Below, piece after piece: positions 7,813-35,953 of a stretch of 64,000 nt of DNA. Below the pieces are notes generated by a model. It did no database searches. It saw nothing but the letters and a program-made list of their open reading frames with translations, and had not been told where the DNA came from. This DNA comes from Pirellulaceae bacterium (lineage in GTDB: Bacteria; Planctomycetota; Planctomycetia; Pirellulales; Pirellulaceae). The translations under genes were made by a program, and so were the position numbers. Each line of letters begins with the position of its first letter. Positions within the stretch are counted from its first letter, which is position 1. Where the stretch lies: NCBI GenBank assembly GCA_026004775.1, contig BPJU01000004.1, positions 124,001 through 188,000 on the forward strand, given 5' to 3'.

Positions 7813-8235
<423 letters not shown>

Positions 8236-9583: not shown

Positions 9584-9692
9584 GATGATCGACTCCTCTG
9601 TTACACGGCCACGACGAAGTGGAGGTTCTTGAGCTTTCCGTTTGTTGGCTGGCTCTGTGCGGTGCAGGATATTTTCCTGACACGGGCGGCTG

Positions 9693-15102: not shown

Positions 15103-15648
15103 GTGTTCAGTCGACTTCTCGCGCTTGTGCTGCTGACAGCGGCTTATCTTAAATGGCAGGCAGTTATGGCGGGTATGGTCTATGCCCTGCCGTGGTTAGC
15201 CTATCCCCGAGTGGTGCTTGCGATCGGTGTGTCGGAAATAATCTTGGCCGTTTGGCTACTGGCGGGAGCGGTGGCCGAAGCGGCATGGTGCGCGTCGGTT
15301 GTATTCTTCTCTGGCGCCAGTGTCACGGCGGCGTACATGTGGTGGGTGGGAGTTTCGCACTGCCCCTGTTTCGGAGCTTGGCAGATCGCCCCCGGGCGTG
15401 TGATCTGGTTGGACTTGGTGCTGGTGGGTCTGCTGTGGGTCATAAGACCGACGAAGGATTCGATTGCTGCTATTCTTTGGAATGCGCTATCGGGCTGGCC
15501 GGGCCGCCTGATGTTGGTTTTTTGGTGTATGCCGGGGTTGCTGGCGGTGTGGGCCACCGTGACGTCCGGCAATTCTGGTCAGAGCACCGCCGGTAGCCAG
15601 AAGTTGACGTTGCTGCCGGAGGTAAGCTCGCTGGGTACGGAACCTTAG
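15103..15648 (+). CDS. MauE-like four-helix membrane protein, locus A (M-A), cut by an in-frame TAG
   Basis: 181 residues with about four hydrophobic segments. Between helices 3 and 4 lies the Cys pair in SHCPCFGAW, followed by IWLDLVLVGLLWV. The CxCFG loop followed by W...D is the MauE/DoxX-type signature; MauE itself is needed for disulfide-rich methylamine dehydrogenase. The reading frame stops at TAG 15646-15648, but the same frame resumes directly and encodes a DUF1573 domain to 15951. The paralogue at 32427 has both parts fused, so the ancestral gene was 15103-15951 and this copy carries a nonsense codon. It heads locus A and probably shares a transcript with the P and S genes. GTG start; no strong ribosome site. 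Confidence 0.65.
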   Translation: MFSRLLALVLLTAAYLKWQAVMAGMVYALPWLAYPRVVLAIGVSEIILAVWLLAGAVAEAAWCASVVFFSGASVTAAYMWWVGVSHCPCFGAWQIAPGRVIWLDLVLVGLLWVIRPTKDSIAAILWNALSGWPGRLMLVFWCMPGLLAVWATVTSGNSGQSTAGSQKLTLLPEVSSLGTEP

Positions 15649-15678
15649 GGGACTTGGAAAACGTTCGAAGTTCGACTG

Positions 15679-15951
15679 GTGAACAGAACTGCTCGACAGG
15701 TCCGGGTCTATGGAGGAACGTCTGACTGTAGTTGTGTTGCGATTGAGGATTTGCCGTTAGCGCTGGCACCTGGCCAGACGCGGAGCATCCACGTGCGGGT
15801 ACGTTATAGCGGAAAGGGCGGATACTTTTCACGCCGTTATTTTCTGTGGACAGACTGTCCGGAGCAACCGTTGCTGAGCGGGATTGTGGTGGGTCGCGTG
15901 GTGCGACCGCCCGGTGGCAACGCGCCCCGGCAAGCGGTAAAGGGAGGCTAG
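15679..15951 (+). CDS. DUF1573 domain, in frame after the amber codon (second half of M-A)
   Basis: This stretch has the same frame as the MauE-like half. It reads FEVRLVNRTARQVRVYGGTS, then DCSCVAIEDLPLALAPGQTR and a terminal beta region. The Cys-x-Cys within a beta-sandwich followed by L.PG is the DUF1573 hallmark. The paralogue in locus B has the equivalent VTGVQTSCGLQKLTRLPQRI. If TAG is not read through, a separate product would need the GTG/ATG-poor start region near 15679, so this half is probably untranslated. The stop lies 3 bp before the ATG of the first Cys-rich peptide gene. Confidence 0.5.
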   Translation: MNRTARQVRVYGGTSDCSCVAIEDLPLALAPGQTRSIHVRVRYSGKGGYFSRRYFLWTDCPEQPLLSGIVVGRVVRPPGGNAPRQAVKGG

Positions 15952-15954
15952 GCC

Positions 15955-16443
15955 ATGAGGCAGTGGGTAGTGGTTGTTGCCATGATGTTCATAGGTGTGG
16001 GCATGGCGCTGGTGAGTTTGTCGGTGCTGTTTATGCCCAGTGCGACGTTTGCCCAAGAAGAGGAACAGCAGGGGATTGGAGGTGGAGGCGGTGGTGGCGC
16101 AGGGGCGCTTTGCTCGGGACGTGTTCGGTGCGACCGATCCTATCCGAATTGGAACGTGACACCATGTTGCAGCCTGAGCGCGGGACAGTGTTTGCCGCAA
16201 CGATTTCCGTATTGCCTCAACGACCAAGGGCAAGTTGACGCGTGCGGTAATCCGAACCCGGGTTTGGATAGCTCAGGACTGCCGCTCAATTGTATCGGCT
16301 GTGGCTGCCGAGACGTTTCAGCTAATCCGACCTTCCCCATCTTGCGAGTGCAGTCCCTGAGGGTCACAAATAGGGACAAGCCGCTGCGTTTTGTAAGGAA
16401 CCGGGGAAAGGGATGCGTATGCGAACCGACGCACTGCTCGTAA
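15955..16443 (+). pseudogene. Cys-rich secreted peptide P1, frameshifted copy
   Basis: Identical to P2 (17571) up to the final residues. One extra T near 16343 shifts the frame, so the conserved C-terminal CECSP is replaced by a read-through tail that overlaps the S1 start. The signal peptide, Gly-rich segment and first ten cysteines are unchanged. The ribosome site GGGAGG and the ATG at 15955 match P2. It may still be exported as an aberrant peptide, but the last C-x-C is lost. Confidence 0.8.
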
Positions 16444-17524
16444 TTCTAGTTGCTGTAAGCCAGGTTGCTGCGGAATATCGTCAAGCAGCTGCCGAAACAC
16501 CTGCCGGACGGGCTGTCGAAGAGTATGCCGGTTCATCAGTATCTCCAGAGGATGTGCTTAAGGCCGCTAAGGCAGGGTGGCGTCGCGTGCGAGAGCGCTA
16601 TCACTACTTTAGTGCAACAGTCTCCTGGCACCTGGTACTGGACAACGTATTGGACGGATTAGTGGACAGCCAGACGATTTCTAGGGAAGGGGTAATAAAA
16701 AAATACGACGACAGGGTTTGGCTGGCCGTTGGACAGCATCAGGAGAGAAAAAGAACTGGTAAGACCGCAACTTTGGCGCGGGGGGCCTGCGTAAACGACC
16801 GCTACGTCTTCGCGGTAGAAGGCCAATCGCTTACGTGGACCGTACCGGCTTGTCGAACAGCGCCGTGCGACCCAGGATGTCGTGGCCGAAAAGCGTCAGG
16901 TAAATCCGATGATCCCGCCAGAATTGCAGCTTGATATGAAGTATACCGTGGGTGTGGACGAGGTGCTGGTGGACGATGCGACAAGCATAATCAGCGCGCG
17001 TCGGCTTACGGGACAAGGGGGCGACCTTAGTGGTTTTAAAGGTAACCCGAACCCCAACTGCCGCCCAGGTGCGGCAAAACATCGTTCAGCGGCGCTACCT
17101 GCCGCAGGGGACATTCGAATTGGTATTGGATCCGAATTGCGATTATCGCGTCGTTAGGTTCCAGGACGACGAAACTGTGCCCGCGCCTGATGGAAAGAAT
17201 ATGCTAACCGTGAAATCGAAGGTAACCCGGCGATACGAACAACCGAGTGAGCGGCAATTGATAGCGGTAACGGAGAAAACACTCCACGACAAGTCGGGCG
17301 AAATTATTTGGACAAGCATCGAACAGGAAAACTTTACGTTTGAGCGCCCAAAGCGTGAGGAATTTTATTTGACTGCTTTTGGCTTGCCAGAACCGCCTGA
17401 CTATCAAGCCAAGCGCACGGGGTCGGTTTACTGGTGGCTGATGGCGGTCGGCTTCACCTTTGTAGTGATAGGCTTTGTGCTATGGCGGTGGAGCGAAGGC
17501 TGGCACCAGAAAAACAATCGTTGA
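16413..17524 (+). pseudogene. membrane-anchored partner protein S1, broken by two frameshifts
   Basis: A near-identical copy of S2 (18028-19137). An extra G at 16829 and an extra A at 17024 shift the frame twice, splitting the product into a 5' frame that ends at 16934 and a 3' frame that is open from 17030 to 17524. The 3' frame still encodes the C-terminal anchor. One substitution region turns WYS into WTS near 17311. No intact product is expected. Confidence 0.85.
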
Positions 17525-17570
17525 TTTGCCCGGCCACGCGCCCCGGCAAGCGGTAAAGGGAGGCTAGGCC

Positions 17571-17975
17571 ATGAGGCAGTGGGTAGTGGTTGTTGCCATG
17601 ATGTTCATAGGTGTGGGCATGGCGCTGGTGAGTTTGTCGGTGCTGTTTATGCCCAGTGCGACGTTTGCCCAAGAAGAGGAACAGCAGGGGATTGGAGGTG
17701 GAGGCGGTGGTGGCGCAGGGGCGCTTTGCTCGGGACGTGTTCGGTGCGACCGATCCTATCCGAATTGGAACGTGACACCATGTTGCAGCCTGAGCGCGGG
17801 ACAGTGTTTGCCGCAACGATTTCCGTATTGCCTCAACGACCAAGGGCAAGTTGACGCGTGCGGTAATCCGAACCCGGGTTTGGATAGCTCAGGACTGCCG
17901 CTCAATTGTATCGGCTGTGGCTGCCGAGACGTTTCAGCTAATCCGACCTTCCCCATCTGCGAGTGCAGTCCCTGA
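17571..17975 (+). CDS. Cys-rich secreted peptide P2 (intact)
   Basis: 134 residues. A Sec signal runs to about residue 33, with cleavage after ATFA. The mature peptide starts QEEEQQG, continues with an oligo-Gly run and carries 12 cysteines, including a CC pair and a final CGC...CEC-S-P. The C-x-C(6-10)C-x-C-x-x ending recurs in P3, P-B and P-C. The even Cys number and a MauE-like gene at the head of the locus suggest a disulfide-bonded exported peptide. A GGGAGG ribosome site lies 8 bp before the ATG. S2 starts 53 bp downstream. I do not recognise a named family, and the function is unknown. Confidence 0.75.
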   Translation: MRQWVVVVAMMFIGVGMALVSLSVLFMPSATFAQEEEQQGIGGGGGGGAGALCSGRVRCDRSYPNWNVTPCCSLSAGQCLPQRFPYCLNDQGQVDACGNPNPGLDSSGLPLNCIGCGCRDVSANPTFPICECSP

Positions 17976-18027
17976 GGGTCACAAATAGGGACAAGCCGCT
18001 GCGTTTTGTAAGGAACCGGGGAAAGGG

Positions 18028-19137
18028 ATGCGTATGCGAACCGACGCACTGCTCGTAATTCTAGTTGCTGTAAGCCAGGTTGCTGCGGAATATCGTCAAG
18101 CAGCTGCCGAAACACCTGCCGGACGGGCTGTCGAAGAGTATGCCGGTTCATCAGTATCTCCAGAGGATGTGCTTAAGGCCGCTAAGGCAGGGTGGCGTCG
18201 CGTGCGAGAGCGCTATCACTACTTTAGTGCAACAGTCTCCTGGCACCTGGTACTGGACAACGTATTGGACGGATTAGTGGACAGCCAGACGATTTCTAGG
18301 GAAGGGGTAATAAAAAAATACGACGACAGGGTTTGGCTGGCCGTTGGACAGCATCAGGAGAGAAAAAGAACTGGTAAGACCGCAACTTTGGCGCGGGGGG
18401 CCTGCGTAAACGACCGCTACGTCTTCGCGGTAGAAGGCCAATCCTTACGTGGACCGTACCGGCTTGTCGAACAGCGCCGTGCGACCCAGGATGTCGTGGC
18501 CGAAAAGCGTCAGGTAAATCCGATGATCCCGCCAGAATTGCAGCTTGATATGAAGTATACCGTGGGTGTGGACGAGGTGCTGGTGGACGATGCGACAAGC
18601 ATAATCAGCGCGCGTCGGCTTACGGGACAAGGGGGCGCCTTAGTGGTTTTAAAGGTAACCCGAACCCCAACTGCCGCCCAGGTGCGGCAAAACATCGTTC
18701 AGCGGCGCTACCTGCCGCAGGGGACATTCGAATTGGTATTGGATCCGAATTGCGATTATCGCGTCGTTAGGTTCCAGGACGACGAAACTGTGCCCGCGCC
18801 TGATGGAAAGAATATGCTAACCGTGAAATCGAAGGTAACCCGGCGATACGAACAACCGAGTGAGCGGCAATTGATAGCGGTAACGGAGAAAACACTCCAC
18901 GACAAGTCGGGCGAAATTATTTGGTACAGCATCGAACAGGAAAACTTTACGTTTGAGCGCCCAAAGCGTGAGGAATTTTATTTGACTGCTTTTGGCTTGC
19001 CAGAACCGCCTGACTATCAAGCCAAGCGCACGGGGTCGGTTTACTGGTGGCTGATGGCGGTCGGCTTCACCTTTGTAGTGATAGGCTTTGTGCTATGGCG
19101 GTGGAGCGAAGGCTGGCACCAGAAAAACAATCGTTGA
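18028..19137 (+). CDS. secreted, C-terminally anchored partner protein S2 (intact)
   Basis: 369 residues. A signal peptide is at 1-21 (MRMRTDALLVILVAVSQVAA). It is followed by a helical start (DVLKAAKAGWRRVRERYHYF), a beta-rich middle (LELVLDPNCDY-type strands, YRVVRFQDDETVPAPDG) and then EFYLTAFGLPEPPDYQ. A single membrane helix near residues 339-360 (SVYWWLMAVGFTFVVIGFVL) ends in a basic tail (WRWSEGWHQKNNR). The FxLxAFGLPEPP-helix-basic ending recurs in S3 and, as TEFTPAALGIATP, in S-B and S-C, and is familiar from unnamed planctomycete proteins. The topology places the bulk in the periplasm. Always adjacent to a P gene, so it probably handles or binds the peptide; this is inference. Confidence 0.7.
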   Translation: MRMRTDALLVILVAVSQVAAEYRQAAAETPAGRAVEEYAGSSVSPEDVLKAAKAGWRRVRERYHYFSATVSWHLVLDNVLDGLVDSQTISREGVIKKYDDRVWLAVGQHQERKRTGKTATLARGACVNDRYVFAVEGQSLRGPYRLVEQRRATQDVVAEKRQVNPMIPPELQLDMKYTVGVDEVLVDDATSIISARRLTGQGGALVVLKVTRTPTAAQVRQNIVQRRYLPQGTFELVLDPNCDYRVVRFQDDETVPAPDGKNMLTVKSKVTRRYEQPSERQLIAVTEKTLHDKSGEIIWYSIEQENFTFERPKREEFYLTAFGLPEPPDYQAKRTGSVYWWLMAVGFTFVVIGFVLWRWSEGWHQKNNR

Positions 19138-19183
19138 TTTGCCCGGCCACGCGCCCCGGCAAGCGGTAAAGGGAGGCTAGGCC

Positions 19184-19557
19184 ATGAGGCAGTGGGTTGC
19201 GGTTGTTGCCATGATGCTCGTAGGTGGGGGGTGATACTGGTGGCCAGTCCAGTGCTGGTGTTGCCGTCGTTGGCGCTGGCCCAAGAAGAGGAAGCCGGAC
19301 AAGGGATTGCCCCATGTACTGGAGGAAACGGTTGTGATCGAGGGACTTTGGAGCGATGCTGTATTTGGTACGCGCCGCAGGCGCAGTGCATCAACAGGTT
19401 TGTTATTAACCCTGGCCTGTATTGGCATTGCCATAATCCGAACGTGCCCTATCCACATGATGCCTGCTCCAACCCAAACCCGCCGCCGGGAACAAGCTGC
19501 AACGGATGTTATTGTACAAGAGATGGTCGCGAAAATGACTGCGATTGCGGACCATGA
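19184..19557 (+). pseudogene. Cys-rich secreted peptide P3, frameshifted in a G run inside the leader
   Basis: It starts like P1/P2 (MRQWVAVVAMMLVGG), then meets TGA. Restoring one G in the G6 run at 19226-19231 joins it to the frame that continues VILVASPVLVLPSLALAQEE. That continuation has a normal cleavage site and a mature peptide of 12 cysteines ending CYCTRDGRENDCDCGP. Cys order and spacing match P2 although most other residues differ, so it is a diverged paralogue. The homopolymer position makes slipped-strand on/off switching possible, but simple decay or a base-call error is equally possible. Confidence 0.7.
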
Positions 19558-19707
19558 TAAAGTGGTGACCGATTTCGGTTTGCAAGCTCGGCGTACTACG
19601 CGTGGAAGACGCTGGCTACGTATCAAAAATGTGCTCGAGTCGCAGTTCCTTATCCAGTGGGTTAGTGACTAAGTGCGTTATGAGATTGACTTTTGGAGTC
19701 TTATGGT

Positions 19708-20859
19708 ATGTGGGGGATACTATACAATGCTTCCTTATATGCCGGCGTGTTGATTGTGTTGGAATCCATTGTCTCGGTATTGGGTGCTCGAGTTGCCTTG
19801 GCAGATGAGTCTATCCAACCAGTCGTCGAGGAGGAGATGCCCACACTTGTAGAGACGATAAAACACGCCTGGTCAAGGGCGGTTGAGCAACAAAAGTATG
19901 TTTCGTGCAGGCGGGTCTTCACGGAGTTTGCTATCGAGAATAACGAACCAAAGATTACTCGATTGATCGAGAGTCACTACCGTAGCTGCAATGATAACTG
20001 TGTGTTGATTACGTTCGTCATAAAGGTTGTTGATGTGATGATGAGCCGAGATCCAAGCGTCTTCCGGTGCGGGTCCTGGGACGTAATGACCGATACTACT
20101 TCGAACTAGAAGCCAGTCAACCAGACGGGCCTTTTCGTTTAGTGAGCCTCCAGCGGCTGAAGCCCGGCGATGCCGTCTTGAACGTGAAGCTCGACAAACT
20201 TGAAAAGTACAGGTCAGCGTTTACCCATCGAGGCTTCACCGTTGAATCGGTACCGCTGCCGGAGATGCTCAAGGACGGCACGTTGAAAATAACCGGCGGC
20301 GCTTACCGTACCGAGAACGGGCGCCGACTGCTGGAGTTGACTATGCAGCCGGACATTCCGCGACGCGGGGCCGCGTCGTACGTGCTTCCGAAGGGGCAGC
20401 GGGGTGGCAGTGGGATAAAGGCGGTGTTTCTGCCGTACATAGACCACCAACAAGGCGAGCATCTTCCATTTAAGGTGACGGTCGCGCCCGATCGGGAATA
20501 CCGGTTGGTACGCGTTGAGGGGAAAGGAAGAGGCTTGGAGTGGTATACAGAGATTCTTGATTATGAAGTAAATGAACGGGGCAAAACGCGAGTTATTGCA
20601 ACTGTCGAAACTGGCAGTAAGACCGTCGCGTACGGTCGGTACGATTGTCGAGTGTGTAGTGACTTCTGAAGAGCGTCCAGCACAATCGGGGTTCTACTTG
20701 AGTGCTTTCGGACTGCCGGAGCCGCCGGAATTGCAGGCTCGGCCGAACCGGTGGATGTATTGGCTGTTGGCCGCCGGAGTGACATGTATTATGGTGGGGC
20801 TGCTGCTTTGGCGGCGCTATGAAAAGGGCCGCAAGACGGTGGGCAACGGGAATTCCTAA
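19708..20859 (+). pseudogene. membrane-anchored partner protein S3, two frameshifts
   Basis: A diverged paralogue of S2. It begins at the ATG at 19708 with a GGAG ribosome site and a signal peptide ending near ARVALADE. The frame changes near 20080, where the next frame carries RNDRYYFELEASQPDGPFRL, matching VNDRYVFAVEGQSLRGPYRL of S2. It changes again near 20630, where the third frame supplies SGFYLSAFGLPEPPEL, a membrane helix and the basic end RRYEKGRKTVGNGNS. The anchor-end homology and adjacency to P3 identify the gene. The last 149 bp are also present as a stray fragment at 25811. Confidence 0.75.
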
Positions 20860-21437
20860 CCTTCAATCGGGGATTCGGCATTAGCAGGGTTGGCTCGCTG
20901 GCACCACATCGGGGGCTCTACCGACATCCGGCAAAATGAGCAGCTCGATTTCGCAAGGCAGTCGTCCCATTTTGTATTATGTTCGGACTTCAAAGGTAAG
21001 CGTGCATCGGCACCATTCTTGACGGGGTTGGTAGGCTGATGGCGTGGTCTCGGAACACGCCTGTTTTTGAGCAAAGTAGCCCCCCGTGAACCAAAGTGCT
21101 CGTGGCTAATCCCCAACGCTGCCCGCGGCAACTGCGAACCTGGCCAGTACGTTGTGCTCAACGGCTCCCGACGAACCCGAGTTTCGCCCGGTCCAGGTCA
21201 GTTTTGCAACCAAGGCAGCCGTGCTGGTTGTTCGACTTCCCGGTGATGTGGAACTACGCATGGAAGACGAGCCGCACCCGGCAGAAAAACTGGCCGGCCA
21301 AATCCTGCAGCTTACCCTGGCACCGCAGGAGGCTCGATGATGCTTGGCTTAGCATCTTACTTTTTGGTTAGAATAAGCCGTTACGGGAAAGCAACGTTAT
21401 TCGTTCCGCATTTCGTTTGATCGACTCAATGCTTGCT

Positions 21438-21502
21438 GCCTATCCGAAAACCACTCTTGGTCCGCTGTATCGATAGGCTCTCGAAACGGTTTTCGGATAG
21501 GC
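21438..21502. repeat. perfect 15-bp inverted repeat (copy 1)
   Basis: GCCTATCCGAAAACC at 21438-21452 is matched by its exact reverse complement GGTTTTCGGATAGGC at 21488-21502, with a 35-bp spacer. The same structure lies at 26538-26602 in the duplicated segment. It could be the paired ends of a deleted mobile element or an RNA hairpin. No target duplication is evident and it is not followed by a T tract. Confidence 0.7.
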
Positions 21503-21653
21503 TCTTAGTGTGCGGCGTCATAGCGCTAGCGCGAATGCGAGGTTGGTCTAGTTCCACGCTCACAAGGCTTTGGAACGCGTACTTGACAGTCTTCATGGGA
21601 GGGTGGGGTGAGGGGGGCAGGGATAGCTAACCCCCTCACCCCGGCCCTCTCCC

Positions 21654-21851
21654 CCTAAAGGGGGAGAGGGAGTAGGGTTTGTGCGGCCTAAAGGGGGAGA
21701 GGGAGTAGGGTTTGCACGTCCTAAAGGGGGAGAGGGAGTAGGGTTTGTACGGCCTAAAGGGGGAGAGGGAGTAGGGTTTGCACGTCCTAAAGGGGGAGAG
21801 GGAGTAGGGTTTGTACGTCCTAAAGGGGGAGAGGGAGTAGGGTTTGTACGT
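21654..21851. repeat. 33-bp minisatellite, six units
   Basis: Six head-to-tail units, each CCTAAAGGGGGAGAGGG followed by a 16-bp AGTAGGGTTTG... end that alternates between TACGT, CACGT and CGGC variants. The first unit is preceded by CCCTCTCCCCC, which pairs with GGGGGAGAGGG as a hairpin. There are no spacers, so it is not CRISPR. The 33-bp period keeps frames open on both strands, giving artificial 11-residue peptide repeats. Confidence 0.95.
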
Positions 21852-22675
21852 CATCTCTTCCACTTGGCACCAGCTAGGGCATTCGACTATTTATCCCAGA
21901 CGGTGAGCAACCGGTTTGGCGAACGCCCGGCGCCTTCTCTGCTGCGGCTAGTCCTAACACTCGGCAGAAAGGATCTATTATTCTGACACCTCTTGTCTTT
22001 TCGCTATTACATGGAAGTTGAACATGTCTCGGTTCAGCCAGAGATGGACAAACGGAACAAGGGTATAAAGTAGAAACAGTTCATGACGACGGATTCCTTG
22101 TCTCTATTCTAGGGGTATTATCAGGACTGACCAAGGTAGGTGCAAATGTTTCGGCCAGGGATCGAGCCCCGGAGGGAAGGTCGAGGTTGTGGCAGGTAGC
22201 CCACAGGTCAAGGACAGTGCCTTGGCACTGGCATTGGCGATGAAAGCACCGGAAGATGCCGTGTGGCACATGGGCAAAGAAGTAGCGTTAGTTTTCACCG
22301 TCGGGATGTTGATGGATAGGACACGGCCCGCAGCGTTGCGGTTTGCTTCCACGATAGTGTTTCAGGCCGGGGTGTGCCTCGACGCGATCAGCCATGCGGA
22401 CCTTGTGTCGCAGTACGGCAAAACGGGTACAGTTATCTTGTGGTTTGGTTGCTTGTCGAGCAGCTTGGCGTCGTTGACGGCGAGGCTCAGGTGCCTCCTG
22501 GAGCTTTTCATCGCGCTTGTGGTAAATGATTGCATCCGGACCATAGAACACTTTCACAGGATCGTTCTGTTGTGCCTTTGGACTGTGGATAGTAGGGTGA
22601 TGTCGTAATATGATGAAGGTAGTAAGGAGTGTCGATATGAGTTCGACGCGACTGGCGCGTACCGATAATCTGGCA

Positions 22676-23785
22676 TTACATGTGCGAGGGTTTGCGTGAG
22701 GTATTTGGATTTGCGGTACTGGTAGGGCAGCGCAAAAGTAGTGGCTTGAAAAGGCTGCCACTGTTCACCGCCATTGTTCGGCACAACTCTATCATGTAAC
22801 CGAGGCCGTAGCCGAGATGGAGTGCCAGGGCATACGCGATCACGGCCGGAAAGGCAGATGGTCGTTTCAAAGCGCGAGCCCCTTGAGCTCCCAGGAGCAG
22901 TAGGCTGACGGCATAGATCAGCGCTGGAACCAGCCACAAGGTGCTCGCCCAGCCGAGTACTCCCATGATGAAGGGCAGGGCGAGGAGGTAAAGGTATAGC
23001 AGGGCTGGTAGCACGTGTAGCCACTGATGCTGTCCATGACGCCGAGCCAGCCGGACACGTGCGGCACCTTTGCCTGCGGCCTGGATAAAGGCTTGCTGCA
23101 AACTGCGTCGTTCATGGTGGACAACCTTGGCGCCGGGACAATACCGGATTTCCGCTCCTAACAACTCGATCTGTCTGCCGAAAGCCAGGTCTTCACCAAA
23201 CGCTGCAAGAGGAAATCCGCCGGCTCGGCGGGCCAGTTCTGCTCGCACCGCCATATTACCCGCTCGGGGATAGTATTTCATATGGAGCATCGCCCGGGGA
23301 TTGCGAGCCCCGGCGGCACCTAACGATGACGACATAAGGAAATTGAGGCACTGTCCGGAAAGGTATCGGCTTTGGCGCCCCTCAATGGCACCTCCGACCA
23401 ATCCGATCCTTTGATCTTGAAACTCGGCAACGATCGTTTCCAGCCAGCCTTCCAGCGGTTCGCAGTCCGAGTCCGTGAACAGCAGCAGTTCTCCTCGGGC
23501 GTGGGCGATACCCAGATTGCGGGCACTGGCTGCCCCGCCGTGGAGCTGCCGCATATAGCGAACGATTGCTCCGTGAGAAGCCATGAACTGCTCAATCGTT
23601 GAGCCAATATCGTCGGTCGATCCGTCGTCGCAAATCAGTATTTCTACGTTGGAAAACTGTTCCGCCTGTCTGATGATGGCTGCCAGGGCCACTGCCAAGT
23701 CTTGGGCGCGGTTAAATACCGGGATGATGATGCTGATGCCGGGTGACGGCAATAAGCAAGCTTGGCTGGGAGCAGCGTCGCACAT
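22676..23785 (-). CDS. family 2 glycosyltransferase with C-terminal membrane helices (copy 1)
   Basis: 369 residues from the ATG at 23785; longer upstream frames would run into the preceding gene. The GT-A fold starts with PGISIIIPVFNRAQDLAVAL, then ILICDDGSTDD, then the metal-binding LLLFTDSDCEPLEGWLE (DSD in place of DxD). The acceptor-side FGEDLAFGRQIELLG (ED motif) follows. Two or three C-terminal membrane segments (LPALLYLYLLALPFIMGVLG and later) place the enzyme at the inner membrane, catalytic side in the cytoplasm. It likely transfers a sugar to a lipid carrier or polysaccharide; donor and acceptor are unknown. It follows the GT39-like gene by 55 bp, so the two form an operon. Copy 2 encodes the identical protein. 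Confidence 0.85.
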   Translation of the reverse strand: MCDAAPSQACLLPSPGISIIIPVFNRAQDLAVALAAIIRQAEQFSNVEILICDDGSTDDIGSTIEQFMASHGAIVRYMRQLHGGAASARNLGIAHARGELLLFTDSDCEPLEGWLETIVAEFQDQRIGLVGGAIEGRQSRYLSGQCLNFLMSSSLGAAGARNPRAMLHMKYYPRAGNMAVRAELARRAGGFPLAAFGEDLAFGRQIELLGAEIRYCPGAKVVHHERRSLQQAFIQAAGKGAARVRLARRHGQHQWLHVLPALLYLYLLALPFIMGVLGWASTLWLVPALIYAVSLLLLGAQGARALKRPSAFPAVIAYALALHLGYGLGYMIELCRTMAVNSGSLFKPLLLRCPTSTANPNTSRKPSHM

Positions 23786-23840
23786 AATTATTTGTCCCGG
23801 CGTAGTGCAACTCTTTTTGACCCGGGCTACTGTGTCGGCG

Positions 23841-25661: not shown

Positions 25662-25810
25662 AAAGGTTTTCTTACTCCGTCCCGCCGTTTACAACCGATT
25701 GGGTAGTGGCGCACTGGCAATAAGACCGTCGAGGCGATAATTCTCACAATAAAGCTCGGAGGCGAACCACACGGAGTTATTTCCCAGCAGCAAATTGACG
25801 CCGAGCCATC

Positions 25811-25959
25811 GACTGCCGGAGCCGCCGGAATTGCAGGCTCGGCCGAACCGGTGGATGTATTGGCTGTTGGCCGCCGGAGTGACATGTATTATGGTGGGGC
25901 TGCTGCTTTGGCGGCGCTATGAAAAGGGCCGCAAGACGGTGGGCAACGGGAATTCCTAA
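25811..25959 (+). pseudogene. C-terminal fragment of S3 created by the duplication joint
   Basis: These 149 bp encode the last 49 residues of S3, starting inside GLPEPPELQ and running through the membrane helix to GNGNS. They are fused at their left side to the upstream region of the GT39-like gene. No start codon or ribosome site serves them. They mark the exact novel joint of the tandem duplication. Confidence 0.9.
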
Positions 25960-27677
25960 CCTTCAATCGGGGATTCGGCATTAGCAGGGTTGGCTCGCTG
26001 GCACCACATCGGGGGCTCTACCGACATCCGGCAAAATGAGCAGCTCGATTTCGCAAGGCAGTCGTCCCATTTTGTATTATGTTCGGACTTCAAAGGTAAG
26101 CGTGCATCGGCACCATTCTTGACGGGGTTGGTAGGCTGATGGCGTGGTCTCGGAACACGCCTGTTTTTGAGCAAAGTAGCCCCCCGTGAACCAAAGTGCT
26201 CGTGGCTAATCCCCAACGCTGCCCGCGGCAACTGCGAACCTGGCCAGTACGTTGTGCTCAACGGCTCCCGACGAACCCGAGTTTCGCCCGGTCCAGGTCA
26301 GTTTTGCAACCAAGGCAGCCGTGCTGGTTGTTCGACTTCCCGGTGATGTGGAACTACGCATGGAAGACGAGCCGCACCCGGCAGAAAAACTGGCCGGCCA
26401 AATCCTGCAGCTTACCCTGGCACCGCAGGAGGCTCGATGATGCTTGGCTTAGCATCTTACTTTTTGGTTAGAATAAGCCGTTACGGGAAAGCAACGTTAT
26501 TCGTTCCGCATTTCGTTTGATCGACTCAATGCTTGCTGCCTATCCGAAAACCACTCTTGGTCCGCTGTATCGATAGGCTCTCGAAACGGTTTTCGGATAG
26601 GCTCTTAGTGTGCGGCGTCATAGCGCTAGCGCGAATGCGAGGTTGGTCTAGTTCCACGCTCACAAGGCTTTGGAACGCGTACTTGACAGTCTTCATGGGA
26701 GGGTGGGGTGAGGGGGGCAGGGATAGCTAACCCCCTCACCCCGGCCCTCTCCCCCTAAAGGGGGAGAGGGAGTAGGGTTTGTCACGTCCTAAAGGGGGAG
26801 AGGGAGTAGGGTTTGCACGTCCTAAAGGGGGAGAGGGAGTAGGGTTTGTACGTCATCTCTTCCACTTGGCACCAGCTAGGGCATTCGACTATTTATCCCA
26901 GACGGTGAGCAACCGGTTTGGCGAACGCCCGGCGCCTTCTCTGCTGCGGCTAGTCCTAACACTCGGCAGAAAGGATCTATTATTCTGACACCTCTTGTCT
27001 TTTCGCTATTACATGGAAGTTGAACATGTCTCGGTTCAGCCAGAGATGGACAAACGGAACAAGGGTATAAAGTAGAAACAGTTCATGACGACGGATTCCT
27101 TGTCTCTATTCTAGGGGTATTATCAGGACTGACCAAGGTAGGTGCAAATGTTTCGGCCAGGGATCGAGCCCCGGAGGGAAGGTCGAGGTTGTGGCAGGTA
27201 GCCCACAGGTCAAGGACAGTGCCTTGGCACTGGCATTGGCGATGAAAGCACCGGAAGATGCCGTGTGGCACATGGGCAAAGAAGTAGCGTTAGTTTTCAC
27301 CGTCGGGATGTTGATGGATAGGACACGGCCCGCAGCGTTGCGGTTTGCTTCCACGATAGTGTTTCAGGCCGGGGTGTGCCTCGACGCGATCAGCCATGCG
27401 GACCTTGTGTCGCAGTACGGCAAAACGGGTACAGTTATCTTGTGGTTTGGTTGCTTGTCGAGCAGCTTGGCGTCGTTGACGGCGAGGCTCAGGTGCCTCC
27501 TGGAGCTTTTCATCGCGCTTGTGGTAAATGATTGCATCCGGACCATAGAACACTTTCACAGGATCGTTCTGTTGTGCCTTTGGACTGTGGATAGTAGGGT
27601 GATGTCGTAATATGATGAAGGTAGTAAGGAGTGTCGATATGAGTTCGACGCGACTGGCGCGTACCGATAATCTGGCA
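25960..27677. other. region without recognised genes (copy 2)
   Basis: Repeats 20860-22675 with a shorter minisatellite. The inverted repeat is at 26538-26552 and 26588-26602. The overlapping small frames seen in copy 1 recur unchanged and have no recognisable domains. Confidence 0.5.
26754..26853. repeat. 33-bp minisatellite, three units
   Basis: Three units (34, 33 and 33 bp) of the same repeat as at 21654. The first carries one extra base (GTTTGTCACGT). The loss or gain of three units relative to copy 1 shows slippage since the duplication. Confidence 0.95.
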
Positions 27678-28787
27678 TTACATGTGCGAGGGTTTGCGTG
27701 AGGTATTTGGATTTGCGGTACTGGTAGGGCAGCGCAAAAGTAGTGGCTTGAAAAGGCTGCCACTGTTCACCGCCATTGTTCGGCACAACTCTATCATGTA
27801 ACCGAGGCCGTAGCCGAGATGGAGTGCCAGGGCATACGCGATCACGGCCGGAAAGGCAGATGGTCGTTTCAAAGCGCGAGCCCCTTGAGCTCCCAGGAGC
27901 AGTAGGCTGACGGCATAGATCAGCGCTGGAACCAGCCACAAGGTGCTCGCCCAGCCGAGTACTCCCATGATGAAGGGCAGGGCGAGGAGGTAAAGGTATA
28001 GCAGGGCTGGTAGCACGTGTAGCCACTGATGCTGTCCATGACGCCGAGCCAGCCGGACACGTGCGGCACCTTTGCCTGCGGCCTGGATAAAGGCTTGCTG
28101 CAAACTGCGTCGTTCATGGTGGACAACCTTGGCGCCGGGACAATACCGGATTTCCGCTCCTAACAACTCGATCTGTCTGCCGAAAGCCAGGTCTTCACCA
28201 AACGCTGCAAGAGGAAATCCGCCGGCTCGGCGGGCCAGTTCTGCTCGCACCGCCATATTACCCGCTCGGGGATAGTATTTCATATGGAGCATCGCCCGGG
28301 GATTGCGAGCCCCGGCGGCACCTAACGATGACGACATAAGGAAATTGAGGCACTGTCCGGAAAGGTATCGGCTTTGGCGCCCCTCAATGGCGCCTCCGAC
28401 CAATCCGATCCTTTGATCTTGAAACTCGGCAACGATCGTTTCCAGCCAGCCTTCCAGCGGTTCGCAGTCCGAGTCCGTGAACAGCAGCAGTTCTCCTCGG
28501 GCGTGGGCGATACCCAGATTGCGGGCACTGGCTGCCCCGCCGTGGAGCTGCCGCATATAGCGAACGATTGCTCCGTGAGAAGCCATGAACTGCTCAATCG
28601 TTGAGCCAATATCGTCGGTCGATCCGTCGTCGCAAATCAGTATTTCTACGTTGGAAAACTGTTCCGCCTGTCTGATGATGGCTGCCAGGGCCACTGCCAA
28701 GTCTTGGGCGCGGTTAAATACCGGGATGATGATGCTGATGCCGGGTGACGGCAATAAGCAAGCTTGGCTGGGAGCAGCGTCGCACAT
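27678..28787 (-). CDS. family 2 glycosyltransferase (copy 2)
   Basis: The protein is identical to the GT2 at 22676-23785, including the DSD metal site and the C-terminal membrane helices. The only nearby base change (28392) is silent. It lies 55 bp after copy 2 of the GT39-like gene in the same operon arrangement, so both copies look functional. Confidence 0.85.
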   Translation of the reverse strand: MCDAAPSQACLLPSPGISIIIPVFNRAQDLAVALAAIIRQAEQFSNVEILICDDGSTDDIGSTIEQFMASHGAIVRYMRQLHGGAASARNLGIAHARGELLLFTDSDCEPLEGWLETIVAEFQDQRIGLVGGAIEGRQSRYLSGQCLNFLMSSSLGAAGARNPRAMLHMKYYPRAGNMAVRAELARRAGGFPLAAFGEDLAFGRQIELLGAEIRYCPGAKVVHHERRSLQQAFIQAAGKGAARVRLARRHGQHQWLHVLPALLYLYLLALPFIMGVLGWASTLWLVPALIYAVSLLLLGAQGARALKRPSAFPAVIAYALALHLGYGLGYMIELCRTMAVNSGSLFKPLLLRCPTSTANPNTSRKPSHM

Positions 28788-28842
28788 AATTATTTGTCCC
28801 GGCGTAGTGCAACTCTTTTTGACCCGGGCTACTGTGTCGGCG

Positions 28843-30663
28843 TCACCGCGGCTGGGTGACCATTTGGCCGACGCCGGTAGCCGGACTGCTTTCCAAACCC
28901 TGACTGTCATGACGACTGTCCGGTTGTGGTTTAGGCGCATCGTTGGCTCCAGCAGTTGCCCGATAGTAGAGGACGACCGTGGGAGTTTCCCAGCGGGTGT
29001 GTAATTCCGGAGAAAAGGACCATCGCCGGATAACGGAAATCTCCGGTTGGGCAAGGAATCCGTTTTTTTCGAGGTCGAAGGGTGAGTACGTTACAATCCA
29101 GGCGCTTGGCCCAAGCCGGCTGGCCACCTGTTGCGGGGTAATGACCTCTTCGTCCTGTAATTGAGCAAATAGTTTTTGAGCGGGGCGAGCCGGCTCGTCC
29201 GTTACGTACAACGGTCGATCCGCCTCATGCCGCATGTAGTAGGCGGCAGGGAACAAAAGCCTTGGTGAGAGCACGAACACAGGTTCGGCACCGCGACGCG
29301 AGTGCAGGATATGAGCCACGGCTGCTCGAATCCCTGGCCGGCTGGTGGAACCGAGAATGTGCCGGTTATCCCAAATCCCCCAGACTGAGCACCCGATCAA
29401 GAATATTTGGAGCAGCCAACGTTCCGCTGCATGGTAAATTCGCGCCACAAGAATTGCAGCCGCCATCAACCAAAATATTTGCGCGAATACCAAATAGCGG
29501 GCATCGAAGATACTGCGGATGGAATGGGCCGAATAGGCGATCAATAGCAGTACGGGGAGCATGCCCCCGACCGTGCAGAACCACCCGGGCCATCCTTGGC
29601 GCAACGGTGCGAGGAGCAGCACCGCGATCACCAACGCCACACAGCACCAATCAACGGCAGATGGTTCGCTACCGGGAGTGACTGGTGTTGCCAGGAGTGC
29701 CGCGTAAACCTGGCGGGCTGCATCCTGTGCTTGTAAGGGGCGCGACCAGGACGAGCGCAAGTTCTCCGATTGGCCCCATAGATGTGGTACCCAGGGCAGG
29801 TATAGCAGCCCTACGACAAGAAGTGCAGCAACTGCGGCAACAGGGGTTCGTGTTGCCATACCCGTTCGACTTCCGAACGGGCTTTGGGCATTCCACCGGC
29901 CAGAAGAGGGAGCAACGGTGAGTGCTGGCTGTTTCGCGGAATTGCGCCGAAACCGCGGAGACAGCCATAGATAAGAGAATAGGAATAGGGTGTGGGCCGC
30001 AACAAACAGCAGCAATAGATGATGCGTATAGCATGCCGTAACAGTGATCAGGACGTACATAGACCAGAGTATGAAACATGACCGGTTATCGCGTGCCGTT
30101 ACGGCGCGTACCAAGAAGAAGCTGCCGGCGCACAGCAGGAACGTAGCGAATGTGTAACCTCGCACCTGTTTAGCAAGTTGAATATGTAATGGTGACAGTG
30201 CTAGAAGAATGGCGGCCAGGTCCGACGCGCGAGCCCAGACGGCCGCAGGCGATACCGGACGGTTTTCCTCCCCCCGTTCGTTTGGCTCGTACTTTTCGCG
30301 GAACGGAATTTCCGTTGCCTTATTCTTTGGCTGGTCGGTTTCGTGAGTAGCTAGCCGTTGCAGGGCACGCACAGCCACCCAGGCAGCTGGGATCGTAAGC
30401 ACTCCGGCCACTGCCGAGAGTGCGCGCATGGTGAATTCGCTGTCACCGAAGCATTGGATCCACCATCGCAAGAGAAGGAAATATGCGGGCGGATGGGCCG
30501 TGGTCGGTTCCCCAGTACGCCGGATCAGTTCCCAGGCCGGGAATTGGCTCAGCCGCCAGGAAAGCGCCTCGTCCAACCACAGGCCTTTGGCTCCGAGTGC
30601 ATAGCCGCGCAAAGCGGCTCCCAATATCGTGGCTAATATGAGTATTCTAATACCACGTAGCAT
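28843..30663 (-). CDS. GT39/PMT-like membrane glycosyltransferase (copy 2)
   Basis: 606 residues, identical to the copy at 23841 except Ala for Val in RLLFPAAYYMRH, within the C-terminal soluble domain. Its upstream region (30664-30812) is the end of the duplicated segment, so both copies keep the same 149 bp of 5' sequence and probably the same promoter. Confidence 0.85.
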   Translation of the reverse strand: MLRGIRILILATILGAALRGYALGAKGLWLDEALSWRLSQFPAWELIRRTGEPTTAHPPAYFLLLRWWIQCFGDSEFTMRALSAVAGVLTIPAAWVAVRALQRLATHETDQPKNKATEIPFREKYEPNERGEENRPVSPAAVWARASDLAAILLALSPLHIQLAKQVRGYTFATFLLCAGSFFLVRAVTARDNRSCFILWSMYVLITVTACYTHHLLLLFVAAHTLFLFSYLWLSPRFRRNSAKQPALTVAPSSGRWNAQSPFGSRTGMATRTPVAAVAALLVVGLLYLPWVPHLWGQSENLRSSWSRPLQAQDAARQVYAALLATPVTPGSEPSAVDWCCVALVIAVLLLAPLRQGWPGWFCTVGGMLPVLLLIAYSAHSIRSIFDARYLVFAQIFWLMAAAILVARIYHAAERWLLQIFLIGCSVWGIWDNRHILGSTSRPGIRAAVAHILHSRRGAEPVFVLSPRLLFPAAYYMRHEADRPLYVTDEPARPAQKLFAQLQDEEVITPQQVASRLGPSAWIVTYSPFDLEKNGFLAQPEISVIRRWSFSPELHTRWETPTVVLYYRATAGANDAPKPQPDSRHDSQGLESSPATGVGQMVTQPR

Positions 30664-30828
30664 AAAGGTTTTCTTACTCCGTCCCGCCGTTTACAACCGA
30701 TTGGGTAGTGGCGCACTGGCAATAAGACCGTCGAGGCGATAATTCTCACAATAAAGCTCGGAGGCGAACCACACGGAGTTATTTCCCAGCAGCAAATTGA
30801 CGCCGAGCCATCGACTGGGAATGTGTTC

Positions 30829-31950: not shown

Positions 31951-32082
31951 CCGTACACCTTGCCGTGGAGGAAGCATCCAAGGCCACGGAATTGATAGCA
32001 AATGTCGGGGATGTTTTTTCCGGCGGCAAACGTCGTTGAAACGTGCCGGATCTCCGGTAGTGCACGGCCGCCAGATGCACCC

Positions 32083-32355: not shown

Positions 32356-32722
32356 GTTTTGCTCCTTTCGTGTTTAAGGACGCGGTACGCTAACATTTTA
32401 CTTTGTAGCAGTTGCGATAACGTCTGCTAAGTCCCCGCGTGAATCGCCAGAACAATCGGTGGGCTGGGCACATCGACGAACACCCGAACTGCATAGGCCT
32501 TACGCCCCGATTGATTGGCAGACGCTGCTACGTTGAATTGTAACCGGCATGCCCCGTGCGGGGGTATCCGCTGCGGCAGGCGCGTCAGCTTTTGTAGCCC
32601 ACAGGATGTCTGTACTCCCGTAACGGTCACTGGCGTAGGTGTATAGTTACGTAATGTGAATGTAACGACACCGCTGCCTGCATCCAAACGAACACGCCAG
32701 GCATCCGGGATTACGCGGTAGC
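32279..32722. repeat. 444-bp block shared by loci B and C (P leader and DUF1573 region)
   Basis: Identical to 35452-35895 at offset 3173. It spans the P leader codons, the P ribosome site, the M-P intergenic region and the DUF1573 half of M. It stops within three codons of the leader cleavage site, so leader DNA is constant and mature-peptide DNA is not. Confidence 0.93.
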
Positions 32723-33323: not shown

Positions 33324-33395
33324 GTTTCTGCCCCTGTAATCGACATGCTCTACGGTAATCTGCCACAACCGTGATCCAGCTAGCAGCTAAAGCCT

Positions 33396-33440
33396 AAATC
33401 TCGAGATTTTGCTCCTTGTATGCAATAGATTTTCGTCTAA
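33396..33440 (-). promoter_or_regulatory. conserved upstream element with 14-bp palindrome before M-B
   Basis: AAATCTCGAGATTT (33396-33409) is a perfect palindrome 73 bp upstream of the M-B start. The flanking 30 bp (GCTCCTTGTATGCAATAGAT and on) recur with few changes upstream of the broken M in locus C (36024-36068), where the palindrome is imperfect. Conservation outside coding sequence, together with the adjacent HTH gene, suggests an operator. Confidence 0.4.
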
Positions 33441-33748
33441 TGGTTCCTCGGCAGGTCCGGCCCATCATCGCGGCGAGGCGTGTTGTAACGTACGTTGCAA
33501 TATGTTTCCATAATGGCAAATGCCAATTCCATTCGATTCCGTGCGCCAAAGCGTCTTAGCAACCGACCCACATGATTGCGAATAGTCGATACGGAAACTC
33601 CCAGTTGGCGGGCTACCCACTTGTCGGAACGAAATGCTAACAATAACCACAGAACTTCAGCTTCCCGTCTGCCGGGTTCCAGCCCAGCCTTTTCCAGAAT
33701 CGCCTGCCAATAGGGCAACAATACAAACCGACGGTCGCTTTGTCTCAT
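33437..33748 (-). CDS. LuxR/GerE-type HTH regulator at the head of locus B
   Basis: 103 residues, essentially only a GerE-type DNA-binding domain: LEPGRREAEVLWLLLAFRSD, then KWVARQLGVSVSTIRNHVGR and LLRRFGARNRMELAFAIME. The conserved T-[IV]-x-x-H-V recognition helix is clear. No receiver or ligand-binding domain is present, so activity may depend on amount or on a partner protein. It is the first gene on the minus strand and M-B begins about 114 bp downstream, consistent with local control of locus B. Loci A and C have no equivalent, which suggests it may act in trans on all. Confidence 0.8.
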   Translation of the reverse strand: MRQSDRRFVLLPYWQAILEKAGLEPGRREAEVLWLLLAFRSDKWVARQLGVSVSTIRNHVGRLLRRFGARNRMELAFAIMETYCNVRYNTPRRDDGPDLPRNH

Positions 33749-33963
33749 TGTGTCGTAAGTACTATGCCCCGCTACCGCTGTCCCTGCGGTGCCTTACGGT
33801 GCCTGCGATACGCATAGAAGCTCCTTGCTATGCCATTGCCCGACGCGTTTGGAAATGGCCCGGCGGACAAAGCCCGCGGTAGGTCTATCGCCGCCGCATC
33901 CGCACACGGTAGCCCGGCCGACCTGAGCGTATCACACTGGGGCGATCGAGTCGGAACGTGCCG

Positions 33964-34459
33964 AGCCGGTGGGGCACGGGGCACTGGCCTGGAGCGAGTC
34001 GGGCCGTCCGCAAATGCCCCCAACGGCGATCGGCTGGCCACCCGCGATCGCCCCCGTTCGGGGACAGCTCAGGTTCTGGAACGTATCGTGCGGGCCAGGT
34101 ACACGGCGATCAGCAGACATAGCACGCCTCCGGCAAAGAGCGCCAGAAACCAATAGCCATTATGAACCTCCCGCGGCGTGGCAATTCCCAAAGCGGCGGG
34201 CGTAAATTCCGTGTCGGGAATGGTGCCAAACTGTATGCTTTCCACCTCGGTTGTTTCACTCATGCTTACCTTTTTTTCCGGCCCTTCCTCGATCCACCAC
34301 CGATACCGCTTCATGATGGGAACGCCGTTGTGCTCTCCTTCATAGTCGACTTGGCCTCGTGATGCCCTGTAGTCCGCCGCCGTGGGAAGTTTCCCCCTTT
34401 CCCACACGGCCCATTCGCGTATGGCCCAGTGGCGATCCGGCATCAGACGGATCCAACCC
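33964..34459. repeat. 496-bp shared block, locus C copy
   Basis: The counterpart of 30829-31324, covering the 3' half of S-C and about 105 bp downstream. The shared piece extends beyond the stop codon, so the identity is not due to protein-level selection. Confidence 0.93.
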
Positions 34460-35079
34460 GCACCTCGAAACTCGGACTGCGGTGCATCTTCCCACCGAAT
34501 CTCAACAAATCGCTCGCCATGCAGGTTGACTTCCGATAAGCCGGTTACCTTTACCGCGCGATAGCGTAGTAAATCCTTAAGAGTCGACGCCATGACAACA
34601 AACGGTCCGTTGACAAAACGAAACTCCCCACAGATCAATCCATGGGGGTCATCAGTAGCCGCATAGACGTACGACAGCTCAAAGGGCGCGTCAACCCCCT
34701 CGCGGTCTGCCCGGAACGCCATCTGGGGGCCTGCACATCGAACTACGCAGCCTGCGTCCACCTGGCCGGCACGATCGTCGCGCAATACGGTTGCGTCAAC
34801 GCGGATATATGCGTCCTTCCGCCGGGATACAATCCGCAGATTTCTCTTACCACCCGTCTCTTTGTAGGCGGGCCAGTTTTCGCGGCGACACACTACCGTC
34901 ATCATGCATCGACTGTATTCCGCCAGCAAAGCCTGCGAACCAACCTCATAGCGCAGTAAAAAATCGTCCTTCAGATCGGCCGCCGCCCGTCCGCAGCACA
35001 GCAGCATACCGGCCACCAGGATGGTCAGTAACACCCGGACCGTCGCATGTTTGAACCACGAAAACCTTGCTACTTTCAT
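34069..35079 (-). CDS. secreted, C-terminally anchored partner protein S-C
   Basis: 336 residues from the ATG at 35079. A signal peptide runs through AGMLLCCGRAAADLKDD; its CC pair could also be read as a lipobox-like site, but no strict lipobox is present. The N-terminal half aligns with S-B throughout (for example RRENWPAYKET in both, SRCMMTVVC versus SRCTITAVY) yet differs at roughly half the positions. From GWIRLMPDRHW onward it is identical to S-B through the membrane anchor. It lies 185 bp after P-C on the same strand. Probable partner of P-C. Confidence 0.7.
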   Translation of the reverse strand: MKVARFSWFKHATVRVLLTILVAGMLLCCGRAAADLKDDFLLRYEVGSQALLAEYSRCMMTVVCRRENWPAYKETGGKRNLRIVSRRKDAYIRVDATVLRDDRAGQVDAGCVVRCAGPQMAFRADREGVDAPFELSYVYAATDDPHGLICGEFRFVNGPFVVMASTLKDLLRYRAVKVTGLSEVNLHGERFVEIRWEDAPQSEFRGAGWIRLMPDRHWAIREWAVWERGKLPTAADYRASRGQVDYEGEHNGVPIMKRYRWWIEEGPEKKVSMSETTEVESIQFGTIPDTEFTPAALGIATPREVHNGYWFLALFAGGVLCLLIAVYLARTIRSRT

Positions 35080-35264
35080 GGTGTTGCACTCATGGTAACC
35101 CCTGGTTTTTCCAGATAAGCGTGTACAACACTTCCTTTCTAGGCGAATACTTTGGTGATGGAATACTCGATCTGCCGTTTGCCTTTCGCGGTTTTTGATT
35201 CATCTAGAGTTACAACGTGGCCATCAGACACAACCGGCAACTATGTCTGTGCTTTCCGTAATCA

Positions 35265-35528
35265 TCACGGGGCGCACACGCACTTATTGCGGTTATTAAC
35301 TTTACACGTGCACTGAGCATGGATGGTATCACAGTTCTGACCTTCGGTGGCCAACGTGCACCCGCCCATGGGATCTGTGACACAGGCAATAGCACCAGCG
35401 CCGCGCCCGTTCACACACGGGGCGTACTGGGCGTAGGCGGCGTTTGTAAAGAGAAGCACGAAGGCCAACAGTAGCGAGACAAAGCCTGTTGCCGCCAGCA
35501 CGTCGACTGCTACTATCCGCATCTTCAT
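35265..35528 (-). CDS. Cys-rich secreted peptide P-C
   Basis: 87 residues. The leader is the same as P-B except Phe for Trp at residue 27, with cleavage after NAAYA. The mature 54 residues carry eight cysteines and end CTCKVNNRNKCVCAP. Relative to P-B it lacks two N-terminal cysteines and keeps C-V-TDP...C...C...C-T-C...C-V-C. The ribosome site AAAGGAGC is conserved. Upstream lies the broken M-C; downstream is S-C. Confidence 0.75.
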   Translation of the reverse strand: MKMRIVAVDVLAATGFVSLLLAFVLLFTNAAYAQYAPCVNGRGAGAIACVTDPMGGCTLATEGQNCDTIHAQCTCKVNNRNKCVCAP

Positions 35529-35895
35529 GTTTTGCTCCTTTCGTGTTTAAGGACGCGGTACGCTAACATTTTACTTTGTAGCAGTTGCGATAACGTCTGC
35601 TAAGTCCCCGCGTGAATCGCCAGAACAATCGGTGGGCTGGGCACATCGACGAACACCCGAACTGCATAGGCCTTACGCCCCGATTGATTGGCAGACGCTG
35701 CTACGTTGAATTGTAACCGGCATGCCCCGTGCGGGGGTATCCGCTGCGGCAGGCGCGTCAGCTTTTGTAGCCCACAGGATGTCTGTACTCCCGTAACGGT
35801 CACTGGCGTAGGTGTATAGTTACGTAATGTGAATGTAACGACACCGCTGCCTGCATCCAAACGAACACGCCAGGCATCCGGGATTACGCGGTAGC
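35452..35895. repeat. 444-bp shared block, locus C copy
   Basis: The counterpart of 32279-32722. Its right end (35895) coincides with the deletion joint in M-C, next to a short tandem repeat of GCGGTAGCGGAC. Confidence 0.93.
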
Positions 35896-35953
35896 GGACG
35901 CGGTAGCGGACGCGGTGCCGTTAAGCTGGTCCGGTTTTTCCCCTACACGCCGG
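35600..35953 (-). pseudogene. remnant of MauE-DUF1573 gene in locus C (membrane part deleted)
   Basis: The DUF1573 half (35600-35860) is identical to M-B. Before it, about 590 bp that encode all membrane helices in M-B are missing. The left remnant (around 35920-35953) still matches the M-B 5' end (CAGCTTAA.GGCACC) but its ATG has become CGG. At the joint lie about 2.5 copies of GCGGTAGCGGAC (35888-35919), which suggests slippage or a repeat-mediated deletion. An internal ATG at 35860 could give an 86-residue DUF1573 fragment without a signal peptide. Confidence 0.8.

Follow-up and report, generated by a model that had tools for sequence, protein, structure and literature searches.

A cassette of three genes, present in three loci (A, B and C) of a planctomycete genome, encodes a membrane protein with a MauE-like and a DUF1573 domain (M), a small exported cysteine-rich peptide (P) and a membrane-anchored protein (S). 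The window, i.e., the whole stretch of 64,000 nucleotides analyzed here, corresponds to positions 124001-188000 of contig C4 in the 6.14 Mb genome of Pirellulaceae bacterium, which probably belongs to the order Pirellulales (C, L and G numbers are our handles for contigs, loci and genomes). M-P-S is a conserved gene set, in mostly fixed order, across several planctomycete orders, and was observed in Pirellulales, Gemmataceae, Isosphaera and other Planctomycetota. The composition of the cassette appears to be undescribed and fits no known kind that could be tested, although its domains are individually known. Tentatively, the cassette may be a dedicated maturation and export line for the small disulfide-rich peptide P, with M as the oxidizing protein and S as the escort, which we consider plausible but short of an even chance.

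Locus B, on the minus strand, is the only complete and intact M-P-S set in the window:
33368-32427, minus strand: M-B, 313 amino acids (aa), MauE-type membrane domain (CACFG) and predicted periplasmic DUF1573 domain, from Pfam and an AlphaFold2 model (predicted local distance difference test, pLDDT, 76); CxCFG is kept in a 17-member alignment
32355-32083, minus strand: P-B, signal peptide and 10 Cys, end CTC..CVCAN
32001-30934, minus strand: S-B, signal peptide, modeled LolA-like ectodomain, EFTPAALGIATP, transmembrane helix and basic tail (AlphaFold2 pLDDT 85.8; Foldseek LolA superfamily, E 1e-7)

Locus C is a duplicate of locus B, with intact P and S genes behind a DUF1573 remnant:
35860-35600, minus strand: M-C remnant, reduced to the DUF1573 domain and almost the same as the end of M-B
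35265..35528, minus strand: P-C, intact, 8 Cys; signal peptide nearly identical to that of P-B, mature part diverged
34069..35079, minus strand: S-C, intact; identical to S-B over the C-terminal 110 aa but with a diverged ectodomain

In locus A, on the plus strand, an in-frame TAG (15646-15648) separates the MauE half of M from its DUF1573 half, and three P-S pairs come after M:
15103..15648, plus strand: M-A, MauE-like half, CxCFG motif (Pfam MauE E 8e-6, 26.7 bits, just below the cut-off of 27; matched by the order-wide M profile)
15679..15951, plus strand: M-A, DUF1573 half beyond the stop, CSC motif (Pfam DUF1573 E 6.5e-4, below the cut-off)
15955..16443, plus strand: P-A1, Cys-rich peptide predicted to be exported, with a frameshift at the 3' end compared with A2
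16413..17524, plus strand: S-A1, split into 16413-16934 and 17030-17524, both halves matched by the S profile
17571..17975, plus strand: P-A2, intact, 134 aa, 12 Cys
18028..19137, plus strand: S-A2, intact, 369 aa, motif EFYLTAFGLPEP, transmembrane helix and basic tail
19184..19557, plus strand: P-A3, frame broken near the start (start out of frame); mature part with 12 Cys in the open reading frame (ORF) 19192-19557
19693..20859, plus strand: S-A3, broken frame, three ORFs (19693-20109, 20067-20669 and 20572-20859)

The initial annotation of this DNA had proposed five P-S pairs in three loci, each headed by a MauE/DUF1573 gene or its remnant, and the ORFs were present where it had placed them, with M split in locus A, intact in B and reduced to the DUF1573 remnant in C. 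Two of the three pairs in locus A, A1 and A3, have broken frames, leaving A2 as the only intact one. The signal peptides of P and its 8-12 Cys were likewise found as described (10 in P-B, 8 in P-C, and 12 each in P-A2 and P-A3), as was the end motif of S before a membrane helix and basic tail. Because the adjacent 1.6-kb copies A1 (15955-17524) and A2 (17571-19137) differ across 1,567 bp in nothing but single-base indels, isolated substitutions being absent, the frameshifts of A1 may be a sequence or assembly error, or may reflect very recent copying or damage.

Other genomes were searched for M with a pattern search of 84,980 species, using three M sequences as queries, and for S with a profile search of the order (247 genomes, only a few candidates scored per genome). 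The profiles were derived from the cassette loci themselves, and many of the genomes compared were fragmented metagenome-assembled genomes. The M search yielded 22 loci, all planctomycete, spanning Pirellulales, Gemmataceae, Isosphaera, Fimbriiglobus, Phycisphaeraceae, Sedimentisphaerales, Planctomycetes bacterium syqfu and unplaced Planctomycetota. The S profile matched in at least 27 of the 247 genomes of the order, and in 6 genomes from a different family of the class. The complete Planctomycetia genomes G548 and G556 contain P-S accompanied by M or DUF1573. The order M-P-S was read in L013/L136, L015 (twice), L058/L117, L066, L097, L118, L120, L121, L122, L123, L125, L130, L137 and L159, and the order P-M-S in L052. 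In a set of 66 S genes, a mixture of loci found via M and via S, 37 had a Cys-rich signal-peptide ORF just upstream, vs 11 of 330 background genes (Fisher p 2e-24; linkage p-values here and below, Fisher where named, treat loci as independent and ignore kinship). Within this set, P lay upstream of S in 34 of the 45 cases with M/DUF1573 upstream and in 3 of the 21 without (p 3e-6).

Among 31 S-anchored loci, found through S alone, P was present in 16, DUF1573 in 23 and MauE in 11, and P accompanied 9 of the 11 loci with MauE vs 7 of the 20 without (p 0.02). The expectation of the initial annotation that M, P and S co-occur in planctomycetes in a conserved order, and rarely without each other, thus held in part: the order is mostly kept and P stands beside S far above background, but the coupling is looser than claimed. 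S was often found without P or MauE, as the above counts show, and M was not found on its own in this way, because MauE nearly always has a Cys-rich exported neighbor. Read from the side of S, these counts could mean that S and DUF1573 form a core envelope system, related to lipoproteins or lipids, to which MauE and P are accessories in some loci. The higher count of DUF1573 than of MauE or P agrees with that, as do proteins in two genomes in which the S ectodomain and DUF1573 are fused (L156, 4566-7274; L157, 6057-7355) and an Lnt-like gene that stands beside S even without P (L055), but the adjacency of P is far above background and tracks MauE, and we judge such a core unlikely.

In the source genome, 11 MauE matches were found and all were located, and the other genomes of the order, among those listed, had at most 8. 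M-P-S occurs elsewhere in this genome on C27 (two copies), on C1 (the same repeat, at the contig edge) and on C21, and an exported Cys-rich protein lies near nearly all of the MauE matches whose surroundings were read. The MauE genes on C2, C5 and C10 (L099, L172, L173, L174 and L175) belong to a related form, M-P'-S', in which the exported Cys-rich proteins are larger (140-180 aa, 9-18 Cys) and the anchored proteins are different ones; those at C5:21k and C10:96k resemble copies of each other. Near the MauE gene at C5:57k, no Cys-rich exported protein stood out, and at C2:274k the only Cys-rich ORF seen overlaps M in another frame.

Judged by its sequences, P is a genuine family of exported Cys-rich peptides that is under constraint. 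Across cassettes, it has a signal peptide and 6-23 Cys, and no Pfam or NCBIfam family matched it; a reading of P as an EGF-like domain was set aside, its PDB match being weak (E 0.04). The last 14 residues contain C-x-C in 35 of 39 P copies, vs 8.0 +/- 2.5 after shuffling, and the pattern C-x-C-x(3-16)-C-x-C, in copies aligned from several orders, was present in 27 of the 39 (3.1 +/- 1.6 when shuffled). The rates of nonsynonymous (dN) and synonymous (dS) substitution between P-B and P-C were 0.26 and 1.19; P is therefore under purifying selection and very likely translated.

The B and C copies are mosaic, the C-terminal 110 aa of S being identical in DNA and the ectodomains diverged (dN 0.40, dS 1.46). 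Positive selection, as a sign of an arms race, was ruled out, since dN was below dS in every duplicate pair, dS being partly saturated. These values bear on the idea of a secreted antagonist, in which P would be a disulfide-rich toxin or bacteriocin, S an immunity or sequestering protein and M a folding factor. P is small, variable, Cys-rich, exported and encoded beside a membrane protein, the copies are locally duplicated in tandem and mosaic, and MauE homologues are reported in candidate Streptomyces gene clusters for ribosomally synthesized and post-translationally modified peptides (RiPPs; PMC7794033). Nevertheless, the toxin/immunity pair suggested initially is disfavored because of the purifying selection on both P and the S ectodomain and because P and S are not paired one to one: S is often found with no P beside it, S genes can stand in runs of as many as six, and a single M or a single P can serve several S. 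No peptide ATP-binding cassette (ABC) exporter, modifying enzyme, immunity or transport gene recurs at the loci either, which makes an antagonist improbable. A signal with its receptor, also suggested, found no support, because the cytosolic tail of S is only a few residues long. None of M, P and S matched the defense-protein models of PADLOC, and no spread of the cassette by plasmids was found.

For S, no relevant Pfam match was obtained among 20 members, save an N_methyl prepilin motif in one, and there was no PDB sequence match. By its predicted structure, the S ectodomain is LolA-like, with a C-terminal anchor (the AlphaFold2 models were built on 17-20 sequences). The S-B model matched the LolA-superfamily structures 3bk5 and 3buu at Foldseek probability 1.00, with a template modeling score (TM-score) of 0.54-0.57 by target, followed by EPDR1 and LprF. 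The most conserved stretch of the family is the end motif E-F-x-L-x-A-F-G-L-P-E-P, directly before the anchor helix. As a general sorting signal this motif was ruled out: the few profile matches in P' loci share the membrane helix only, not the motif. In L063 (4873-13080), six S genes stand in tandem with no recognized P. In L013 (8726-9745, the same as L136 10254-11273), an S-type protein, S', carries in place of its own N-terminus a prepilin-type signal that almost matches the one of the neighboring DUF1559 gene.

M-B matched Pfam MauE with 41.4 bits (cut-off 27, E 2e-10) and DUF1573 with E 1e-5, just under the cut-off. Its model shows a bundle of helices in the membrane, one more membrane helix and, at the C-terminus, a beta-sandwich. 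The conserved S-C-G-C-F-G loop would lie on the periplasmic side, because the helices were counted with the C-terminal sandwich on that side, and the DUF1573 domain usually has a C-x-C of its own. A redox role of this C-x-C fits, because DUF1573 includes selenoproteins with a UGC motif (PMC9312934), and the motifs, predicted to be periplasmic, agree with the earlier description of M as a membrane redox-type protein. The best fold matches were PapD/MSP-like and copper-chaperone-like beta-sandwiches, presumably concerning the DUF1573 part. The latter, resembling Cu(I) chaperones of the PCuAC type, together with the C-x-C in M and the C-x-C..C-x-C signature of P, would suit copper handling, with P as an exported metallothionein-like peptide and M/DUF1573 as its redox or metal-transfer partner. 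This is very improbable, as the fold matched is a generic beta-sandwich, the surroundings of the loci have no recurrent copper transporter, oxidase or regulator, and neither a LolA-like S nor Lnt would have a place in it.

In the maturation and export line that we tentatively propose, P would be exported via its signal peptide, and its cysteines would be oxidized or isomerized by M, through the periplasmic-side C-x-C of the MauE-type domain and the periplasmic DUF1573 domain. S, with its tethered LolA-like ectodomain, would bind P once it is folded, or else a lipid or acyl group attached to it, and escort P. Several observations weigh against this proposal. About half of the S-anchored loci lack a recognized P, 26% lack DUF1573 and 65% lack MauE; in L049, L051, L056, L114 and L115, P is present, the MauE half is absent and only an anchored DUF1573 is found. 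One Cys of the C-x-C in the DUF1573 domain of M-B is lost. The TM-scores against LolA structures are modest even at their best (0.41 by query, 0.57 by target), and proteins with other functions can also have a LolA-like fold. A clear lipobox is missing from P, and Lnt in the source genome is single-copy and unlinked to the cassette.

Elsewhere, Lnt-like genes (PF20154, PF00795) were observed at seven loci in several Pirellulales families, five of them co-directional and directly downstream of S, and the genomes G214 and G065 carry one at each of two loci. Five scanned Lnt-like proteins had an LNT_N match, two more were found with a profile of those five, and all seven keep the E-K-C triad. In these lineages, a dedicated Lnt-like acyltransferase would acylate a cassette protein.

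In other lineages, the DUF1559 prepilin-like neighbor hints at a product that would become part of a pseudopilus-type structure on the surface. A DUF1559 gene directly follows S in L121, L123, L125, L128, L137 and L159 and lies near it in L120, L130, L154 and L158; the lineages with DUF1559 after S are Gemmataceae, other planctomycete loci and another Planctomycetia family (L159). Altogether, DUF1559 stood beside 10 of 68 S genes vs 11 of 393 in the background (p 2e-4). In the source genome, four or five MauE loci, including locus C, have DUF1559 within ~5 kb (p ~0.004, independent loci counted by hand). M was also found inside an operon of the type II secretion system (T2SS), between its F and G genes, both in Phycisphaeraceae and in Planctomycetes bacterium syqfu, accession CP087563 (L131-L133, ~5010-13520); in L132, a Cys-rich exported protein and a DUF1573 protein are encoded upstream of the MauE-type gene in that operon.

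The whole could be a surface-structure cassette, with P and DUF1559 as (minor) subunits of a pseudopilus or fiber, S as a periplasmic assembly chaperone and M only stabilizing, the target being a filament and not a free peptide. Besides the DUF1559 neighbors and the T2SS operons, the prepilin signal on S' and the modeled resemblance of the M DUF1573 domain to PapD/MSP-type immunoglobulin folds speak for this. However, DUF1559 genes are abundant (52 matches in the source genome) and absent beside many M-P-S loci, and the signal on S' looks like recombination with the neighboring gene; we regard a filament as rather unlikely, with a chance that is still appreciable. The linked chain in which M folds P, the Lnt-like enzyme acylates P and S hands P to a DUF1559 pseudopilus-type structure would be a hitherto unknown envelope pathway of Planctomycetota, and is decidedly unlikely in this full form.

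As the initial annotation had supposed, no described system of this composition was found in the open-access literature searched. The mau operon resembles the cassette in that a MauE-type membrane domain is encoded beside a Cys-rich exported protein, and differs from it in that M of the cassette is fused to DUF1573, P, a small peptide, belongs to no known family and nothing in the operon corresponds to S. No methylamine dehydrogenase or other mau genes were seen among the window ORFs and the related loci read, where no dedicated profile search was made. In the BdbA/BdbB system with sublancin, a dedicated thiol-oxidase system for an exported peptide, a redox protein is similarly encoded beside a small exported Cys-containing peptide; the cassette has no peptide ABC exporter and no thioredoxin-like partner, and has the LolA-like S in addition. 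The LolA/LppX/RseB superfamily of lipoprotein and lipid carriers shares the predicted fold of the S ectodomain, and an Lnt-like enzyme lies beside S in several loci, but S has the C-terminal helix and the EFxLxAFGLPEP motif, sequence similarity is undetectable, and no LolB or LolCDE was seen beside S. DUF1559 proteins and the T2SS pseudopilus of planctomycetes are neighbors of S or M in several lineages, but in only part of the loci, and no secretion motor genes were seen at the M-P-S loci of the source genome.

For MauE and MauD of the mau operon, a disulfide role has been proposed (literature reviewed in PMC7794033), and the same role was speculated for the MauE homologues in the candidate Streptomyces RiPP clusters predicted with decRiPPter (PMC7794033). 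There too, MauE stands beside a predicted small precursor peptide, but in another phylum and with no DUF1573 or LolA-like partner described, whereas P of the cassette has a Sec-type signal peptide. None of the RiPP hallmarks (modifying enzyme, and leader peptidase or ABC exporter beside the precursor) recurs at the loci, as far as these were read.

P and S are two protein families without a current Pfam entry. The envelopes of planctomycetes are unusual, and no function is settled for the DUF1559 and DUF1573 proteins that abound in them. By tying a redox protein to a new exported Cys-rich peptide family and a new LolA-like family, the cassette offers a handle on DUF1559 and DUF1573, and it makes predictions that can be tested in Planctomycetota, on disulfide formation, the export of peptides and acyl modification.

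Two further genes flank the loci on the window:
33437..33748, minus strand: LuxR/GerE-type helix-turn-helix gene directly upstream of M-B (Pfam GerE E 8e-10), a possible regulator
36614..37846, plus strand: DUF1559 prepilin-like gene beside locus C (DUF1559 profile match at C4:160926-161789), a possible cassette partner

No RNA elements were found above threshold. Between loci A and B, a ~5 kb segment is duplicated in tandem (20711-25810 and 25811-30806); it encodes a family 2 glycosyltransferase and a membrane protein weakly similar to PMT (GT39-type), and includes the tail of S-A3. Inside this segment, a 33-bp G-rich repeat (CCTAAAGGGGGAGAGGGAGTAGGGTTTGTGCG) forms tandem arrays at 21621-21883 and 26755-26885.

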